From Leucobacter coleopterorum (lineage in GTDB: Bacteria > Actinomycetota > Actinomycetes > Actinomycetales > Microbacteriaceae), in assembly GCF_011382985.1 (NCBI RefSeq), contig NZ_CP049933.1, forward strand, positions 682,001 to 746,000: DNA of 64,000 nucleotides, in the 5' to 3' direction. A model generated the notes under the pieces. The model was not told where the DNA came from. It did no database searches and worked only from the letters and a program-made list of their open reading frames with translations. Position 1 is the first letter of the stretch; every line of letters starts with the position of its first letter. Made by a program: the position numbers and the translations under genes. Shown here one piece after another: positions 3,195-28,429 of the stretch.

Positions 3195-4612
3195 CTACCC
3201 CCGCGTCCCCTCAAGCGGGTATTCCTCACCGAGCTGATCGATCTGCTGGGTCGTAGGATCCTGTTCGGAGAAATCGAGCTTCGGCACTGGGCGCTTGAAG
3301 CCCCCGGTGACGAGTGCGATGATGCCGACGCCAATCACGAGCCAGATGCCACCAACAATCCAGGTGCCAGGCTGAAGTGAGGTCCACAGCCAGATAGTCA
3401 TTGCGAAGCCGATCAGCGGGAACACAAAGAAACGAAGAATTCGCCAGAAGGTGATGTGCTCGCGTAACCCACCCTTCGGAAACATGTACGTGCGAATCAC
3501 CGAGAGATTCACCATGGCAAACGCGGCGAGAGCGCCGAAGCTGATCATGAAGGCAACGACATCAAGCGACAGGAATAGCGCCGAGAGCGCGAACACCGAC
3601 ACCGCGATCGCGGCGACAATAGGGGTGCCAAAGCGCTTGTGCAGACGGGAGAGTGGCCTCGGCAGCATCCCGTCACGACCCATCGCGTAGAGAATACGCG
3701 AGACCGAGACCTGCCCGGTCATGCCAGAACCGAACGCACCCGCGACATAGACCGCAACAAAGAAGGCTGTGAATCCTTCGCCGCCAATATTGTTCATGAC
3801 GGTAACGCCCGCCGCATCGATTTCTGCACCGCTGAGCGAGGCCCAGTCAGGCTGATAAGCGATAGCACCGGCCCACGACACCAGAATAAAGAAGAGCCCG
3901 CCCAGCAGCGTCGAGAACACGATTGCGCGCGGGATGTCTCTGCGCGGGTGCTTTGCTTCTTCGGACAGTGTTGACACCGCGTCGAAGCCGAGGAACGAGA
4001 GCGCAAGCACCGCCGCCCCGAGGCCACGGCGCCGATGCCGCCCTCACCAAATGTGAACGGTTCGATGAGGTCGACCGACGCGTCCCCGCCCAGGGCGTGC
4101 TTAAACGCCAGCACCATAAACACTGCAACCAGGATCACTGATAGCCCGATGATCGCAAAGTTCAGCTTGTTCACGAGCGTTATGCCGAGAATGTTGAAGA
4201 GGAGAACCAGAAGGAGCGCGGCGAGGGTGAACGCCCAGCTTGGGATCGCGGGAAACTGCGTGTTGAGATAAATGCCGATGAGCATAAAGTTGATCATCGG
4301 AATGAACAGGTAGTCGAGCAGCATCACCCAGCCGGTGAGAAAGCCTGCGGCTCCGCCGAACGATTGTTGTGAGTATGTGTAGGCCGAACCCGCGACCGGG
4401 TAGCGCCGCACCATTGCGGCGTAACTTCCCGCAGTAAAGAGCATCGCGACGACCGCAACAATGTAGGCCGCGGGCAGGTGACCGTCAGTGACCTGATTGA
4501 CAATGCCGTAGGTGGTGAAGACCGTGATGACGGTCATGTAGGTGACGCCGAAGAGGGTGAGGCCGGTGAGGCCCAGAGCCCTCTTGAGCTGGGGTTGTTT
4601 GGTATCGCTCAA
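3195..4612 (-). CDS. APC superfamily amino acid permease, frameshifted
   Basis: An integral membrane protein with about twelve hydrophobic segments. The first helix carries the APC substrate-binding signature (LTGLTLFGVTYM), followed by GSAYTYSQQSFGG and, in helix 6, SFLGFDAVSTLSEEAKHPRRDIP, all typical of amino acid/polyamine permeases. One base is missing in the C run at 4016-4019; restored length 472 aa. The TTG start at 4612 has a good Shine-Dalgarno (AAAGGAG). It lies 38 bp downstream of the amidohydrolase gene and is probably co-transcribed, suggesting that it imports the amidohydrolase substrate or product. The substrate is unknown. Confidence 0.88.
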
Positions 4613-8163: not shown

Positions 8164-8790
8164 TTAGGATGTAGGTTTTTTGCGCGCCCGATCGCGCAGG
8201 CTCGAGACCACCATCCAGGCTGCGTATGTGAGGAGTCCACCGACGGCGATCGCTATTGCGATCGCTTTGCTTTGCCCGGTGAACACTGCTGTAACCCAAC
8301 CCACGTAGGGAATCGCGTACCAAACAGTTCCTCTGATTTGCACCTCTTGAACGGGGGCGGGGTCCGGTTGGGGGTTGGCGTCTCCCTTGGTGACAAATAC
8401 CGGGGATCCGTCGGCCAGGAACTGTTTCTGGGTGACACGGTGAGTGACCAGGGTGTCTTTGCCGCTGTTCAGTTGATAAGTCAACACCATGCCAGGGCGA
8501 ATATCTGAGACCTGAGTTGGCCGCACCACCACCATGGTTCCGGGAGGAAGAGCGGGCTCCATTGAGGAGGTCCTGACGGTGAGCGCAGTGGAGCCGGTGA
8601 CTGCAGGGACGACAATAGTGGCTATTCCTATGCCAACAAAAAGCAGTAATAATCCAAACGTGAGACCGGTGCCAAACGCTCGAAACGTTGCTCGAACTCC
8701 CCGTCGACTACTCGTTGCGCGGTCGGCCGCCCTGCGAGCACGTCTGGAATCTGCAGGCTGGTCCGCCTGCTGCACGGCACTATCAGTCAT
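8164..8790 (-). CDS. sipW: Signal peptidase I of the SipW/Sec11 type
   Basis: A 208-residue membrane protease that removes signal peptides outside the membrane. An acidic/basic N-terminus precedes one membrane segment (about 40-64), then the catalytic RTSSMEPALPPG (Ser76), LVTHRV with His117 in place of the bacterial lysine, and the KGDAN box; a second membrane segment closes the protein. A Ser-His enzyme is the ER/SipW type, which in Bacillus processes TasA-like proteins. The start overlaps the preceding gene by 8 bp. It is the last gene of an operon in which three proteins carry SipW-type signal peptides, so those are its likely substrates. Confidence 0.92.
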   Translation of the reverse strand: MTDSAVQQADQPADSRRARRAADRATSSRRGVRATFRAFGTGLTFGLLLLFVGIGIATIVVPAVTGSTALTVRTSSMEPALPPGTMVVVRPTQVSDIRPGMVLTYQLNSGKDTLVTHRVTQKQFLADGSPVFVTKGDANPQPDPAPVQEVQIRGTVWYAIPYVGWVTAVFTGQSKAIAIAIAVGGLLTYAAWMVVSSLRDRARKKPTS

Positions 8791-9583
8791 GCGCTTCCAC
8801 GATCGTGGCGAGATTTTTGGGGTGAGCGTTGAGACCTACAAGCTTGTGCCTTCTGCGGACGAGCACACCCAACAGCAGCCCTCCGGCAACCCCGAGAGCG
8901 CCAGCCCACACCGCTAGTACAAACGATGCGCCACCCGTGGTGACCAACTTGGGGCTTGCCAATGGGGCCTTTTGCGTCGATGTCATCTCGCAGGCTGCCC
9001 CAACGGCACGCCGTTCTACTGCCGCTGCCTCTTCGAGCACGCCACGCAGCTGAAACCGCACAGTTCCGGTCGCTCCATCGCGTTTGTTGAGGTGAGGATC
9101 AATAGCCGCGGTTAACGAGAGTTCTTTGACTTCCCCTGGATTGAGGAGAACCTCATGCGACAAAACCGTACAGGTGCCGTTGCGGATGCCGTGTGCAATT
9201 GAAACCGGCTCAGTCCCTGAGTGGTCCTTTTCTGCGATGGACAGCGAAAAGCCTCGGGCGAGTTCCGAACTGTTGGAGATGGGGTTGATGAGCTCGATCT
9301 GAAGTCGTCCGGTTGCGGGCCCTTCGTTGCGCACCCAGACTCTCTCAACGTTTTGCGCTCCGGGCACCGATATTCCCATGTCCTCGAAAACCGGAAGAGA
9401 GGTGTTGGAGTCGAAGTTCGTTCCATCGTGAGAAACGGTGAGGCCACCAGGAGACGCATGCGCAGTGGTGGGGTTCATGCCGCTGCAAACTAGAAGAAGT
9501 AACGCGACAACGCACACTGCCGCACCGAGGGGAGTGCGACGTACGCGGAAGAGTTGATCGAGCTTCATATCCTGCATGGTCAC
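8783..9583 (-). CDS. Secreted surface protein with C-terminal membrane anchor, function unknown
   Basis: A 266-residue exported protein. After a hydrophobic signal segment (about 16-35) the mature part looks like beta-sandwich domains (FEDMGISVPGAQNVERVWVRNEG, VLLNPGEVKELSLTA), similar in style to proteins that depend on companion fibre subunits. The C-terminus has LVTTGG, a hydrophobic helix and RRRHK, the layout of a sortase sorting signal, though LVTTG departs from LPxTG and LAxTG. The GTG start overlaps the previous stop (GTGA). I do not recognise a named family. Its place in the SipW operon suggests a cell-wall-linked partner of the surface proteins. Confidence 0.75.
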   Translation of the reverse strand: MTMQDMKLDQLFRVRRTPLGAAVCVVALLLLVCSGMNPTTAHASPGGLTVSHDGTNFDSNTSLPVFEDMGISVPGAQNVERVWVRNEGPATGRLQIELINPISNSSELARGFSLSIAEKDHSGTEPVSIAHGIRNGTCTVLSHEVLLNPGEVKELSLTAAIDPHLNKRDGATGTVRFQLRGVLEEAAAVERRAVGAACEMTSTQKAPLASPKLVTTGGASFVLAVWAGALGVAGGLLLGVLVRRRHKLVGLNAHPKNLATIVEAHD

Positions 9584-10943
9584 CCGACGCCGGAGGTCGC
9601 CGTAACATTGTTGCCGACGCGCGAGAGTTGAATGTCGTCCCATAGCACGACCCCGGTTGTATCCACGATTCTGAATTCACTTGTGCCGCTGGGAAGGTGA
9701 TTCGTTGACGAAGGACTGCCCGCGGTGTAGGTGTACTGAATGTAGGTACTCGCCGCTGCGGCGGTCGTCACGTTGATCCACTCTGTCCCCCTCAAACGCT
9801 GGAGGGTGGCAGAGGCCGAAAGAGATGACCCCCAAACGTAAAACGGAGGGTGGAGCCTGACTGAGAATACGTAAGCGGTTCGCGCTCAAGAACAATTTGA
9901 GCGGTGGAATCTGTACAGGGTACGGTTGGCATACTCGCGGTATTTGAGGTGCTTCTGAGGCTCAGGCATCTTCCGTTTGCCACACTGACGAACTGGAACG
10001 TTAGGGGCGCGGTAGTAGTAATTTGCTGCACGTACCATTGTTGAGAGGCGCTGGAAGAAGCGTTTTGGATTAGTTCGCTGTTCGAAGCGTCGTAGGTGAG
10101 TCTCGTGCCCAAAGCGTGTCGAGGGCGAATGGTGACGAGAGACTGGTCTGATTCAGATACGGGAACAAACTCCCACCGTTGGTTCGAAGCAGCGTGGCAG
10201 CCGTATGAAATGGCGGAGGATCCAGCGCCGCCGCTCGCAGTCACATCCATGCAAATGCCATTGTTTGCTTTGCTGCGCATCGTAAACCAGTGTGAAAGTT
10301 CTGGGGTAAAGAAGCCTGGTGTAAGCGGAAACATTCCCTGTGTCCGCTGAGTGTTTGTCGCAGAAGTCGCCGACGCTATCCAGCCATCAGAGTTGAGTGT
10401 GACCCTTATTTGGGGCTGCGCCTGCTGTGTCCCTGACGTCGTTGCCAAAGCGGTCCAATCGGGGATGGTCGTGCGAACGCAGTATGTGATGCTCTGGCCC
10501 GCTGCAAGCGAAGGCGTGAGCGTCGGCGACGCACCCCAGGTGCCGCTTGCAGCACCGCCAGGAACGGTCGCACCAGAGACACATTCGGATGTGTTTGACA
10601 CGGCCCAGACCGAGATCGGTAGCTGTGCGCCGAGCGTCTCACCGGACGTCATCTGGACGTTCGCTACTCCCGCGATTTGACCCGTGTTGGTGACGGTGAA
10701 CGTGCCCGTGCTAGTCAACGAGTTCGGAAGGTAAGTCGCCGAAAGATTGGGAAAATTCGAGTGTGTGATACTGACGCTTTGTGTGCTGATCGTCCCAGTA
10801 GCTGACACTGTTGTGCTCCAGAATGCCCATGCTCCGCTGCCGCCAGCCGCGAGGAGAAAAGCAACGAGTCCAGCGACCAAGGGGATTCTTCTCCGGCGAA
10901 ACCAAGATTGGGTTTTCTGGAGAGTAGGGCTCTTATCCTGCAT
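9580..10943 (-). CDS. SipW-dependent exported protein with ricin B-type lectin domain, frameshifted
   Basis: The N-terminus is a long basic stretch followed by GLVAFLLAAGGSGAWAFWS, a SipW-type signal peptide. A beta-rich domain with a conserved-looking disulfide pair follows (about 35-190), then a ricin-type beta-trefoil (about 215-340) marked by GICMDV, NQRWEF, QQWYVQ and GRCLSL, the usual Q-x-W and C/L positions. A further beta-rich tail is reached only by restoring one base in the C run at 9829-9833; full length is then 454 aa. Ricin-type trefoils bind sugars, so it may attach the surface structure to polysaccharide. ATG 10943 overlaps the preceding gene by 11 bp. Confidence 0.82.
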
Positions 10944-11528
10944 TCTGCTCACCCGTAACATTCAGAGCGAAATTGAGTGATTGCCCACTCGCACTCACAG
11001 GGGTATTGGCCGCAAGACCAACTTCGAGGCACAGCCAGCGCGTTGTTCCCGCGGCGGCTGTACTGAAAGCACTCGGCGTAACGTATCCGTTGAGGGTCCC
11101 TGCGTGCCCGTGAGACCCGGTGCGCAACTCGCAGAGTTTTGAACAGGTGTAACCCGTGCGGTGGCGTAAGACATCAGGGACGGTGTTGTTGTTGCGGTTA
11201 TCTGCACAGTGAGAGAGCTGCTCGCGTCTCCAGTATTTTTCACGGCAAATGCCTTGGCGATTGGTTTTGCTGGTGCGACTGACCAGGTGCCAAGCGCTGC
11301 CGATGTCGAGTCGTTAATGAGAAGGGTGAGTGTTCCAGAGCTCACGGTAGCTCCCGGGGCCGAACCGCTTGCTGAAAGCCAAGCATAGGTTCCGCCTGCG
11401 CCACTCAGGCCAAGTATGACCGCAAGCCCTGTTGCAAAAGTGGAGGTGACCAGTGCGCGTCGCTTTGAACGCAGGGCAAGATCTCGACGTTGTCGACGTG
11501 TGCCATGCTGAGGTATTGTTCCCCGCAC
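10933..11528 (-). CDS. SipW-dependent-type signal peptide protein (second subunit), frameshifted
   Basis: A basic N-terminus leads into TGLAVILGLSGAGGTYAWLSASG, the alternate signal peptide recognised by SipW-type peptidases. The mature protein is small, Ser/Thr/Ala-rich and probably a beta-sandwich (VSSGTLTLLINDS, FAVKNTGDASSSLTVQI), similar in layout to TasA/CalY fibre proteins. One G is missing at the run at 11098-11100; restored length 198 aa. The GTG start at 11528 has an excellent AAAGGAGG. It is the second gene of the operon. The role as a fibre or coat subunit is inferred from the signal peptide and the neighbouring peptidase. Confidence 0.82.
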
Positions 11529-11574
11529 CGAGTCACCTCCTTTCTTTTGCGATTGTTACTTGTCAAGCTGACTG

Positions 11575-12171
11575 TTATAGGGAGGCGTCAACCTGAGTCA
11601 CAGTAAGCGTGAAGTTCGACAGGTTTACCTTGCCGCTCTTCGCGGGATTATCTTGTGCCGTGGTGCCAGTAAAGGGCCAGTCGATGGTTGCAGTAATGGT
11701 CGTCGTATAGCTCGCCGACGAGTTGCTCTTGTGGTCGAACGTGTCGGGTTGCGCCGCGACAGGGGTTGCTCCTGTGACGGCGTAACTGACGCTGTTTGTC
11801 AAGCGAGCCGCGAGTGCGGTGTCTGCGCTCGTTGGGCTGGCGGGCGCGGCAACCGAGCCCCCTGCCAGGCCGACTTTGAAGCGCAGGTCTTGGCCCTGAG
11901 TCGTAATCGATGCCGGGAAGGAATATGTGAGCTTGTCTCCGGGTACCATGCGCAGAGCGGAAATGTCAGCAACAGTTGTCTCCGCTCCCGTCGTGTGTTT
12001 GATCTTCCAGGTGGGTGTTCCTGTGGCTGTCAGGTGCAGATTGCCGGCCGTGATCGCGCTCTGGCCGCTAATGTTTGCGCTGTCGTTCCAGTAGGCGAGT
12101 GTTCCGCCTGAACCGATGAGCAGCAGCGCTGCTGCACCCGTTGCAATTGCGGCCTTTGCTATTTTCTTCAT
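11575..12171 (-). CDS. SipW-dependent-type signal peptide protein (TasA/CalY-like), first gene of the operon
   Basis: A 198-residue secreted protein. KKIAKAAIATGAAALLLIGSGGTLAYWND is a textbook alternate signal peptide ending in the YWN motif used by SipW substrates; the mature part is a beta-rich sandwich (SAITAGNLHLTATG, NLSNFTLTVTQVD). TasA family proteins with this layout form extracellular fibres in Bacillus. ATG 12171 has GAGAGGA upstream. The promoter-proximal position fits a major structural subunit. A palindrome at 12211-12225 lies just upstream. Assembly into fibres is inference. Confidence 0.85.
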   Translation of the reverse strand: MKKIAKAAIATGAAALLLIGSGGTLAYWNDSANISGQSAITAGNLHLTATGTPTWKIKHTTGAETTVADISALRMVPGDKLTYSFPASITTQGQDLRFKVGLAGGSVAAPASPTSADTALAARLTNSVSYAVTGATPVAAQPDTFDHKSNSSASYTTTITATIDWPFTGTTAQDNPAKSGKVNLSNFTLTVTQVDASL

Positions 12172-12473: not shown

Positions 12474-12556
12474 CCTGTCTAGTCGTAACTGGCGTGCAGA
12501 TGGGACACCATCGGGGAACGACACACGAGTTTTAGGCCGCTCGCCTGGGTCGCTAA
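12474..12556 (+). promoter_or_regulatory. ZTP (pfl motif) riboswitch upstream of glyA
   Basis: The leader contains the conserved blocks of the pfl/ZTP RNA in the right order: AGTCGTAACTGGCG, ATGGGACACCA, GGGGAACGA, then after a variable stretch GCTCGCCTGGGT. ZTP/ZMP builds up when 10-formyl-THF is scarce and turns on one-carbon genes; glyA and folD, the two genes that follow, are classic members of that regulon. The motif ends 17 bp before the glyA start, which favours control of ribosome access, though no structure was computed. Confidence 0.85.
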
Positions 12557-12573
12557 GTTCATGGAGGATTTCT

Positions 12574-14854: not shown

Positions 14855-15556
14855 GTGACACTGCCGATTTCCGCCGCGAGCGCGCTCGCGACCGTTCCAG
14901 CACTTCTCGGGATTGACTGGCTTGACCCTGAAACGCTTCTCAAGACCGGTGGTTGGATCGCCCTGATCCTCGCGTGCGCCTTTGTGTTCTTGGAAACCGG
15001 CGTGCTGGTGCTCGCGTTTTTGCCGGGTGACTCACTGCTATTTACCGTCGGGCTGTTTACCGCCACCGGTGTGATCGATGTGCCGATCTGGATCACCTGC
15101 ATCTTGCTGTTTATCTTCGCGTTTGCTGGTGACCAGATGGGCTTTATGATCGGTCGAAAACTTGGGCCTGCGATTTTCAAGAAAGAGAAGAGCCGCCTCT
15201 TCAATCCCGAAAACGTTGCGCGTACGCACGCCTTCTTCGAAAAGCACGGACCGAAGGCGATCATTATTGCCCGCTTTCTGCCTGTGTTCCGCGCCTTTGT
15301 GCCAGCCGCCGCCGGCGTCGGCCAGATGCGGTACCGCCACTTTGTCACCTACAACGCAATTGGTGCGCTGCTCTGGGGCGTTGGTGTGACGCTGCTCGGG
15401 TTCTTCCTTGGCCAGATCCCCTTTGTGCGCGAGTACAGCGAGATCTTCATTATCGTGCTTGTTCTGATTCCGGGCATCCCGATTTTGATCGAGGCGATTC
15501 GCGCATTTATGTCGTGGCGTGCGAATCGTCGGAGTGTCCCAGAAGAGCAGGCTTAG
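14855..15556 (+). CDS. DedA family membrane protein
   Basis: A 233-residue membrane protein of the DedA/SNARE-associated family. Diagnostic stretches: FLPGDSLLFTVG, AGDQMGFMIGRKLG, the ARFLPVFRAFVPAAAG motif with its arginines and proline, and YNAIGALLWGVGVTLLGFFLGQ. Several DedA proteins act as undecaprenyl-phosphate or phospholipid flippases; others affect membrane potential homeostasis. The GTG start at 14855 has no Shine-Dalgarno sequence. It sits 92 bp after folD and may have its own promoter. Confidence 0.9.
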   Translation: MTLPISAASALATVPALLGIDWLDPETLLKTGGWIALILACAFVFLETGVLVLAFLPGDSLLFTVGLFTATGVIDVPIWITCILLFIFAFAGDQMGFMIGRKLGPAIFKKEKSRLFNPENVARTHAFFEKHGPKAIIIARFLPVFRAFVPAAAGVGQMRYRHFVTYNAIGALLWGVGVTLLGFFLGQIPFVREYSEIFIIVLVLIPGIPILIEAIRAFMSWRANRRSVPEEQA

Positions 15557-15629
15557 CCTCTGCTCAGACGCAACTAATGCGAGCCTAACCTTGCTTGCGG
15601 GGGTACGACCCAGCGAGGATGATGAAGAC

Positions 15630-16369
15630 ATGACTAGCAAACCCAGTGACATTGAGGCCGCGATTCATCACCTGCACGAGGCCCACACCGATGAAAAGGT
15701 TGGGCAGCGCCTGAACTGGCTTCGAGCCGGTGTGCTCGGTGCAAACGATGGCATCGTGTCGGTAGCGGGAGTCGTTGTTGGTGTGGCCGCGGCGACACCG
15801 GGTAATGTCGTCGCGATCCTGACGGCGGGTGTTGCTGCCCTGGTCGCCGGAGCCTTCTCGATGGCCGGTGGTGAGTACGTGTCGGTGAGCACGCAACGCG
15901 ATACCGAAAAGGCCCTCATCGCGAAGGAAATTCAGGAGCTCAACGAGCAGCCCGCTGCTGAACTGGCTGAACTGACTGGCTTGTATCGCAAGCGGGGGCT
16001 CTCCGCGAAGCTCGCGCGTCAGGTCGCGGAAGAACTCACCGCGCACGATGCGCTCGCAGCTCACGCCGAGGTTGAACTTGGCATAGATCCCGAAGAACTG
16101 ACGAGTCCGTGGGTTGCGGCGCTCTCCTCTTTTGTCGCTTTCACCGTTGGTGCGCTGATCCCGCTTATCTTGGCGGTCGTCTCGGGTGATCATACGATTC
16201 TAGTGACGGCTGGAGCGGTGGTTATCGGTTTGTTCTTGACGGGTGGATCAGTGCTCGGCTCGGCAAGGCACCGCTGCTTCCAGCGATCCTGCGCAATGTG
16301 CTGATGGGGTCCGCGACAATGGTGGCGACCTATGCGATAGGTCTGCTGTTTGGTGTCGCGATTGGTTAA
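15630..16369 (+). CDS. VIT1/CCC1 family iron/manganese transporter, frameshifted
   Basis: A membrane transporter of the vacuolar iron transporter family. LRAGVLGANDGIVSVAGVVVGVA and GAFSMAGGEYVSVSTQRDTEKA are family hallmarks; a helical cytosolic metal-binding segment with many Glu residues (KEIQELNEQPAAELAEL) follows, then SSFVAFTVGALIPLI. The last membrane segments (KAPLLPAILRNVLMG to GLLFGVAIG) are in another frame, restored by adding one base near 16257-16259; length is then 246 aa. It would export Fe(II)/Mn(II) from the cytoplasm. Direction is inferred from family members. Confidence 0.88.
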
Positions 16370-27261: not shown

Positions 27262-27350
27262 GACCTCGACCGGTGGATTACGGCGATGCTCCGGGCAACA
27301 ACTCTTCACAATGGATCGTCCGGCGCGTACCTGTCGGTGAGAGGAATATC

Positions 27351-28429
27351 ATGGCGTCAGTAACTTTTGAGGGCATCTCACGCACCTATCCCGGGGCGAA
27401 ATCGGCCTCTGTTGAGGATCTCAACCTAGAGATAGGCGACGGCGAATTTCTGGTTCTTGTTGGCCCATCTGGGTGTGGCAAGTCAACCACGCTGCGCATG
27501 TTGGCGGGCCTTGAAGATGTAGATGCCGGCCAGATTCGAATTGGGGATGAGGACGTTACAAGCACACCCCCGAAGGATCGGGACATCGCGATGGTGTTTC
27601 AAAATTATGCCCTCTACCCCACATGACAGTTGCCGAGAACATGGGTTTCGCTCTAAAAATTGCGGGAGTAAGCAAGGAAGAACGTATCGCCCGCGTGGGG
27701 GAGGTCGCAAAGATGCTTGACCTGGAACCGTTCCTCGACCGCAAACCAAAGGCGCTTTCTGGTGGACAACGACAACGGGTCGCAATGGGGCGTGCCATTG
27801 TGCGTCAGCCTCGTGTGTTTCTGATGGATGAACCGCTCTCAAACCTCGACGCAAAGCTGCGGGTACAGACACGAACGCAGATTGCCTCGCTGCAGCGGCG
27901 GCTCGATGTCACAACGGTCTACGTCACGCACGATCAGACCGAAGCGCTCACAATGGGGGACCGCATTGCAGTATTGAAAGAGGGCAAGCTGCAACAGGTC
28001 GGGACACCCCGAGATCTGTATGAGACCCCGAAGAATGAGTTTGTGGCCGGGTTTATCGGGTCACCGGCAATGAACTTCTTTGCCTCGAAGATCTCCGACG
28101 GTGGGGTGGAATTTGGATCACTCACGATCCCGGTTGAGCCAAACCTTCTCGAGCAGTTGACTAGCTCGGAGGTGACCATCGGGGTGCGGCCGGAAGACCT
28201 GGTTTTGGTGGGTTTGGGTGAGCCCGGCCTCGACATCGTTGTTGACCTGGTTGAAGAGCTCGGCGCTGACGGCTATCTCTACGGTCACACACTGGGGGAT
28301 CGCGTGGACATTGTGGCGCGCGTCGACGGGCGTAACCACCCAGCGGCGGGTGACGCTGTTGCCGTGATACCGAATTCCGAGCATATTCACTTATTCGATA
28401 GTGAGAACGGTGAGCGGCTGAGCCGGTAG
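27351..28429 (+). CDS. ugpC: ABC transporter ATP-binding protein (UgpC/MsmK type), frameshifted
   Basis: The ATPase energising CUT1 sugar importers. Walker [11 protein letters not shown]-loop QNYALYPHM, signature LSGGQRQRV, Walker [18 protein letters not shown]-loop YVTHDQTEA, and a C-terminal TOBE domain ([12 protein letters not shown]). One base is missing in the C run at 27617-27620, inside YALYPHM; restored length 359 aa. ATG 27351 follows AGAGGA. It is divergent from the repressor and its two permeases; single ATPases of this type often serve several sugar transporters. Confidence 0.93.

Follow-up and report, generated by a model that had tools for sequence, protein, structure and literature searches.

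To our knowledge, little is understood of how TasA-type fibres are attached to the cell, which of their ends grows outwards and what they bind. In the passages covered of the papers on the Bacillus systems, each TasA subunit donates a strand to the next (PMC9674648), the proline box, the most conserved site, is situated where TasA protomers meet, TapA donates a strand and cannot receive one (Roske 2023, PMC10151520), and TasA and CalY form heterofilaments in Bacillus cereus (PMC13082335). Here we describe a five-gene operon, A to E, in a 64,000-nucleotide stretch of Leucobacter coleopterorum DNA (contig NZ_CP049933.1, positions 682,001 to 746,000 of the forward strand; hereafter the window), which offers one candidate protein for each of these jobs, the tie to the cell, the growing end and the holding of a target, and whose residue patterns make direct predictions. 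A sequence-only reading of this stretch had interpreted the operon as a surface fibre or matrix module that includes a lectin, and our analysis partly supports this interpretation. Our preferred reading, to which we assign a probability of about 0.55, is that the five genes specify a SipW-dependent fibre of TasA type, for which D would supply the base, A and B the chain and the lectin C the cap. To the sequence-only reading we add a probable TasA-like fold in the anchored protein, a widely conserved gene order, an apparently exchangeable tip domain and a pattern of donor and acceptor residues, along with frame breaks in B and C that it had missed.

The five genes lie consecutively on the minus strand, from 12171 down to 8164, in the order A-B-C-D-E, and each of the five elements named in the sequence-only reading was found where it had been placed. 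A (11575–12171, 198 amino acids) is a small SipW-type substrate and likely fibre subunit with matches to TIGR04089 and PF12389, and B (10933–11528) would be a second small subunit. C (9580–10961) joins a B-related N-terminal domain to a ricin-type beta-trefoil, the lectin domain (9890–10290, residues about 225–357), inside which lie two QxW motifs, QRW at residue 261 and QQW at residue 307. The anchored partner D (8783–9643) has an AxA signal, a putative TasA-like beta domain and a sorting-like tail, and its start is probably, as judged by eye, the ATG at 9577, directly past the point where the second C frame stops. E (8164–8790, 208 amino acids), whose start overlaps the end of D, is a SipW-type (Ser-His) signal peptidase.

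A scored 118.4 bits against TIGR04089 (cut-off 60), 29.6 bits against the SipW-cognate signal model TIGR04088 (cut-off 19) and 24.3 bits against the CalY/TasA family PF12389 (cut-off 22.5); its mature form is free of cysteine, starts with AYWN and carries a VPGD proline box. Against the TasA equivalog NF046066 it reached 9.7 bits, under the cut-off of 450. The start of B (TYAWLS) is similar to that of A, and hhalign related the two families at 97.4%. Taken alone, B stayed under the curated cut-offs (TIGR04088, 14.8 with a cut-off of 19; PF12389, 18.8 with a cut-off of 22.5), and the window B gave no match to the BsaA model TIGR04090. Across the family, TIGR04090 was matched by 13 of the 39 B proteins, and NF046066 by 10/39 B and 3/48 C proteins (E-values up to 0.01 in both cases). 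When compared with the Protein Data Bank (PDB), the B profile found AbpX (9sj2 and 9rhp, E = 5.9e-4 and 6.3e-4) and TasA (E = 1.3e-3 and 1.6e-3). We found no HExxH zinc motif in 60 A, 39 B, 48 C and 46 D proteins, and the name of PF12389, "camelysin metallo-endopeptidase", is therefore no guide to function.

The lectin assignment of C came from RicinB_lectin_2 (PF14200, 44 bits, cut-off 25.6) and Ricin_B_lectin (PF00652, 35 bits, cut-off 29), and its trefoil may bind sugar. The N-terminal domain aligned with B in hhalign (99.1%, E = 4.6e-19), with two conserved cysteines in register. C had been said to carry the same unusual signal peptide as the small subunits; its mature start, AFWS, does resemble those of A (AYWN) and B (AWLS), but the signal stayed under every curated SipW model (TIGR04090, 11.9 bits, E = 0.14, cut-off 60), and neither C nor D matched PF12389, TIGR04089 or TIGR04088. 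Scanned singly, the proteins at the C position matched RicinB_lectin_2 in 27/48 cases, Ricin_B_lectin in 26/48 and fn3 in 14/48, and the copies from Frigoribacterium, Curtobacterium and Salinibacterium have, by eye, a short end that lacks a trefoil. Because a lectin is usual yet not fixed at this position, it looks as if the N-terminal domain of C stays constant and bears a binding domain that can be exchanged. Matches to the Pfam family CDtoxinA in 8/48 C proteins were taken as a trefoil cross-match and not as kinship to toxins.

The window D has an ordinary AxA signal and is for this reason probably not a SipW substrate; by inspection, its C-terminus consists of LVTTGG, a hydrophobic membrane segment and the five basic residues RRRHK. 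A C-terminal membrane segment with a basic tail was present in 45 of the 46 D proteins, which agrees with the anchor proposed earlier, and an LxxTG-like motif was recognised in 20/46 by a home-made pattern that overlooks a few. Since the NCBIfam anchor models matched part of the family (LAVTG in 15/46, LPXTG in 11/46) and four sortase matches above cut-off were found in the organism's own genome, D is likely to be sortase-anchored in some family members and may simply sit in the membrane in the others. The AlphaFold model of D had a mean predicted local distance difference test (pLDDT) score of 76.1, mostly above 90 in the domain 68–205. Its first Foldseek match was to archaeal bundling pili (7ueg, E = 2.9e-4, probability 1.00) and its second to the TasA fibre (8aur, E = 9.9e-4, probability 1.00, template modelling (TM) scores 0.33/0.39), followed at ranks 3 to 7 by an unrelated enzyme (two entries), Pyrodictium cannulae, CS20 pili and the Sulfolobus thread. 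D also aligned with B outside the signal peptides (hhalign, 97.0%, E = 1.2e-10). D itself thus looks TasA-like on its model, a TasA-like fold being probable. The expectation of TasA-like folds was supported for D by fold and for B by profile, and for A no significant match was obtained; we regard the TasA link as fair for B and D, that of A would come through family models, and that of C through its kinship to B.

E was identified by TIGR02228 (89.8 bits, cut-off 51.85), and Ser76 and His117 were invariant in seven aligned sequences, the window's included, as expected of the Ser-His signal peptidase that had been proposed. Against the Bacillus SipW equivalog NF046067 it scored 64.3 bits, under the cut-off of 190. 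Export of A, B and C may depend on this SipW-type enzyme. Three further SipW-type peptidase loci (L035, L036 and L037) lie in the organism's own genome, and no lectin was seen at them; by eye, two adjoin RCC1-repeat-like surface proteins and LPxTG/LAATG-type tails, and one adjoins three alternate-signal-like proteins together with an anchored one. At L035:7172-8703, an A-like protein of just 82 amino acids lies beside IS3-type transposase-like open reading frames (ORFs), arranged, by eye, as if an insertion had struck a SipW locus.

To assess conservation of the gene order, named genomes were scanned with a peptidase alignment, which gave 251 relatives, and the best 80, most similar to the window E, were kept. 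Gene letters were assigned to ORFs of at least 90 amino acids by home-made hidden Markov models (HMMs) whose seeds were proteins of the window and of same-genus copies; letters missing from a locus may be missed genes, and several ORFs had long upstream extensions. The exact order A-B-C-D-E was found at 35 of the 84 strong peptidase genes in these 80 named loci, a share that overstates that among all such peptidases, the best-80 sample being a favourable one, and it was also found in the same-genus loci L033 and L034. As the order recurs in named relatives, the five-gene set is not a chance assembly, and the genes are conserved together as had been proposed. Other orders were ABCDDE (1), ABCCDE (1), ACDE (4), ABDE (4) and ABCE (5); the remaining peptidase genes stood in different or more reduced sets, a good many of these coming from Rhodococcus-like genera and Nocardioides, and three had no further letter. 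Most of the best 80 are from genera that we take to be Microbacteriaceae; the other carriers include Rhodococcus, Prescottella, Gordonia, Nocardioides, Arthrobacter, Cellulosimicrobium and some more.

A seven-sequence alignment of the lectin protein C found matches in 89 of 249 sampled family genomes and in 43 of 85 genera, at most six candidates having been scored per genome and many of the 89 matches being weak or confined to one domain. Within the genus, 5/54 genomes matched C, three of them strongly (the organism's own genome, G009 with three copies and G034 with five). Given 89/249 matching genomes in the family against 5/54 in the genus, the module is widespread in the former and patchy in the latter. 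One G034 locus (L040:2357-8908) has the tandem order A-B-C-A-B-C-D-E, in which both sets share a single base and peptidase, an arrangement to be expected if several sets of subunits and tips use one anchor.

Residue patterns were counted in sets that each included the window copy and, as references, 59/86 A, 38/72 B, 47/52 C and 45/58 D proteins, chosen in order of score, less a few that were incomplete or very long; the window B row includes its out-of-frame end. The column of the TasA proline box held proline in 60/60 A, 38/39 B and 45/46 D proteins. Counted from the conserved Asn, with the few rows that lack it dropped (2/39 B, 2/46 D and 2/48 C), a proline stood 11–14 residues ahead in 36/37 B and 43/44 D proteins and in 5/46 C proteins, the window C among these five; exactly at −12 it was present in 1/46 C proteins. 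Same-genus copies outside these counts gave a proline at −12 in 5/5 B, 4/4 D and 0/6 C proteins, and at 11–14 in 1/6 C proteins. An aromatic SipW-type mature start was found in 50/60 A, 32/39 B and 37/48 C proteins and in 5/46 D proteins. The mature start and the first strand were 15–16 residues apart in 44/50 A and 31/37 B proteins in which a start was found; in D, measured to a landmark unlike that of A and B, 2–15 residues separate the last AxA site from the Ser before the DG of the first strand. We infer from these patterns that A and B would both give and receive strands, that D would only receive and that C would only give.

In the fibre that we propose, E would cleave the signal peptides of A, B and here probably also C, and cleavage would expose an N-terminal strand of near-constant length. 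A and B would then polymerise by donor-strand exchange, the N-terminal strand of one subunit entering the groove of the next. D, with its predicted TasA-like domain and proline box, its lack of an N-terminal donor segment and its C-terminal fixation to the envelope, would be an acceptor-only base; C, with a donor-type start, no proline box and a trefoil or an fn3 or other domain, would be a donor-only glycan-binding cap, outermost on the fibre because D, the acceptor, is fixed at the envelope. Polymerisation, its polarity, sugar binding and SipW dependence all belong to this model; the computed part comprises the order of the genes, their homologies, the trefoil, the tail that anchors D, the residue patterns and the predicted fold of D. 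More tentatively, and at rather less than even odds, we consider the operon to encode a Gram-positive donor-strand fibre with both of its ends gene-encoded, D being the anchored, acceptor-only base of TasA fold, A and B the repeats and C a donor-only cap with an exchangeable domain that is most often a trefoil lectin.

A number of observations weigh against the fibre. The A model, with a pLDDT of 83.6, had no significant Foldseek match (best E = 0.033), its top five rows being non-significant matches to chaperone-usher pilin domains and the TasA fibre 8aur appearing at rank 14 (E = 0.26); the sequence profiles of A and of D did not find TasA in the PDB, A and B resemble each other chiefly over the signal and the first strands, and in the B search an unrelated chain, 8zvk (E = 1.2e-3), ranked between AbpX and TasA. 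For D, TM-scores to 7ueg and 8aur were just 0.27–0.39, an unrelated enzyme came next after 8aur (E = 1.0e-3), no NCBIfam or Pfam family, anchor models included, scored above cut-off on the window copy, and 26/46 family members had no LxxTG-like motif by the pattern used. Four of the six same-genus C proteins, from paralogous modules, lack the aromatic start, strong C matches occur in just 3/54 genus genomes, no D was detected at the G009 locus L041, and the HMMs that collected the families, having been seeded with window and same-genus copies, may favour their residue pattern. To these are added the broken frames of B and C in this assembly, which we take up below.

Some of these points would suit five genes that form no fibre at all, encoding separate secreted or surface glycan-binding proteins with a common dedicated signal peptidase: polymerisation is a proposal, the fold search gave no significant match for A, and a trefoil hints at adhesion or at binding of a substrate. 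Set against this are the mutual relatedness of B, C and D, the relation of B and D to the fibre-forming TasA and AbpX/AbpA, and the near-constant 15–16-residue N-terminal segment, which, alongside the proline box, a donor-strand system would require, and we consider the absence of a fibre quite unlikely. A TasA-type matrix without a lectin tip, in which C would sit on the sides of the fibre or cross-link it to exopolysaccharide and D would be a wall-bound helper like TapA or CapP, is a reading that we hold to be unlikely without being far-fetched. TapA and CapP are, in the passages covered, membrane- or wall-associated helpers of TasA and CalY (PMC10151520, PMC13082335), and the position of C is not fixed by the present sequence data; TapA, however, donates an N-terminal strand of which D lacks the segment, and C has lost the proline box (5/46), which suggests that it cannot sit inside the chain. 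It is these two features that we weigh in favour of the fibre with D as base and C as cap.

The frame breaks raise a further alternative, that the operon is decaying in this organism, B and C being pseudogenes and the module defunct, which would be compatible with the family-level readings. The B ORF (11528–10995) stops at 10995 and the C ORF (10961–9792) at 9792, ahead of the conserved C-terminal parts seen in relatives, and in the close relatives L033 and L034 the frames of both genes are open, as decay confined to this organism would predict. The missing parts are readable in a different frame, for B until 10933 and for C until 9580. A codon-usage scan of the window flagged six same-strand switches between adjacent frames, of which the three at 4022, 25532 and 48621 have no stop nearby, and the genome, a single contig, is rated 89.6% complete; because of these stop-free switches elsewhere and this completeness, assembly indels are the simpler reason for the breaks and, we think, a likelier cause than decay, if not a proven one. 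The weak point of the argument is that it is made from the assembled sequence and that the scan gave no flag for the B and C breaks themselves. On balance we regard decay as quite improbable. The ORF at 15519–16304 also appears, by eye, to have an out-of-frame end.

Several observations concern the surroundings and relatives of the operon. Promoter-like sites numbered 1 against 1.5 expected from shuffles, and terminator-like sites 10 against 5.3 expected (standard deviation 2.0), none of the latter being confidently assignable to an operon end. Upstream of the operon and divergent from it lies a ZMP/ZTP riboswitch (window 12475–12557, plus strand, 52.9 bits, cut-off 39), behind which is an ORF that resembles glyA, and an msiK cis-regulatory RNA was found at 27294–27351 (plus strand, 48.3 bits, cut-off 33). 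The peptidase match of highest identity (67%) came from L044, a metagenome-assembled genome labelled Micropruina, for which transfer or misbinning is possible. Its C shares 51% identity with that of the window, against 37–38% in L033 and L034, and its A shares 66%, against 67% in the same-genus copies; because L044 is closer in C but not in A, horizontal transfer from a source of this type is not claimed. A record labelled Sporosarcina beigongshangi (L098) holds an actinobacteria-like A-B-E-D-B set, which may reflect mislabelling, contamination or transfer. Large ORFs resembling STAND/LuxR-like regulators, their family judged by eye, adjoin SipW modules both within the genus and in L044 (L034:10933-13143, L037:14087-15982, L038:7474-9990, L039:11385-13544, L040:29-2089 and L044:2520-5252); as a matching ORF of more than 250 amino acids was present in just 8/80 named loci, such a regulator was rejected as a core part.

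A full-text literature search, with subscription literature mostly outside it, gave among the papers listed no described TasA-type matrix in this bacterial group, and neither a lectin made together with SipW nor such an actinobacterial operon. The locus shares with tapA-sipW-tasA of Bacillus subtilis a dedicated SipW peptidase, TasA-like subunits, a proline box and an aromatic mature start, and TasA is matched by B in profile and by D in fold. It differs in the low score of A against the TasA equivalog, and in that no lectin and no sortase-type base are mentioned for tapA-sipW-tasA in the passages covered (PMC9674648, PMC10151520), where TapA has the N-terminal donor segment that D lacks. The sipW-calY1-bc1280(CapP)-calY2 operon of Bacillus cereus (PMC10151520) similarly has two related subunits and a wall-associated helper; as far as the covered passages go, CapP is sortase-independent with a disordered C-terminal domain, in contrast to the predicted TasA-like domain and partly LxxTG-type tail of D, and no lectin is mentioned (PMC13082335). 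For sipW-bsaABCRSD of Clostridium perfringens, the portions covered describe a small subunit that needs SipW to be exported and polymerised, together with accessory secreted proteins, but the authors predicted no LPXTG-like motif, the operon has a two-component system, of which there is none between the five genes here, and no lectin is mentioned in these portions (PMC7395162). In the passages covered, then, none of the three systems appears to have a lectin or an anchored base of TasA fold. Archaeal bundling pili (AbpA/AbpX) supply the best fold match of D and the best sequence matches of B, although they are archaeal.

The closest analogy in the way of working is with the chaperone-usher P and type 1 pili, whose pilin domains head the non-significant fold matches of A. 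Such pili are chains linked by donor strands, one end of which bears a sugar-binding adhesin; the five genes include neither an usher nor a chaperone, and homology is not claimed. If the proposed fibre with both ends gene-encoded is real, it would be a monoderm counterpart of an adhesin-tipped, base-anchored pilus, assembled with neither an usher nor polymerisation by a pilus-type sortase and distributed across the Microbacteriaceae and related actinobacteria.

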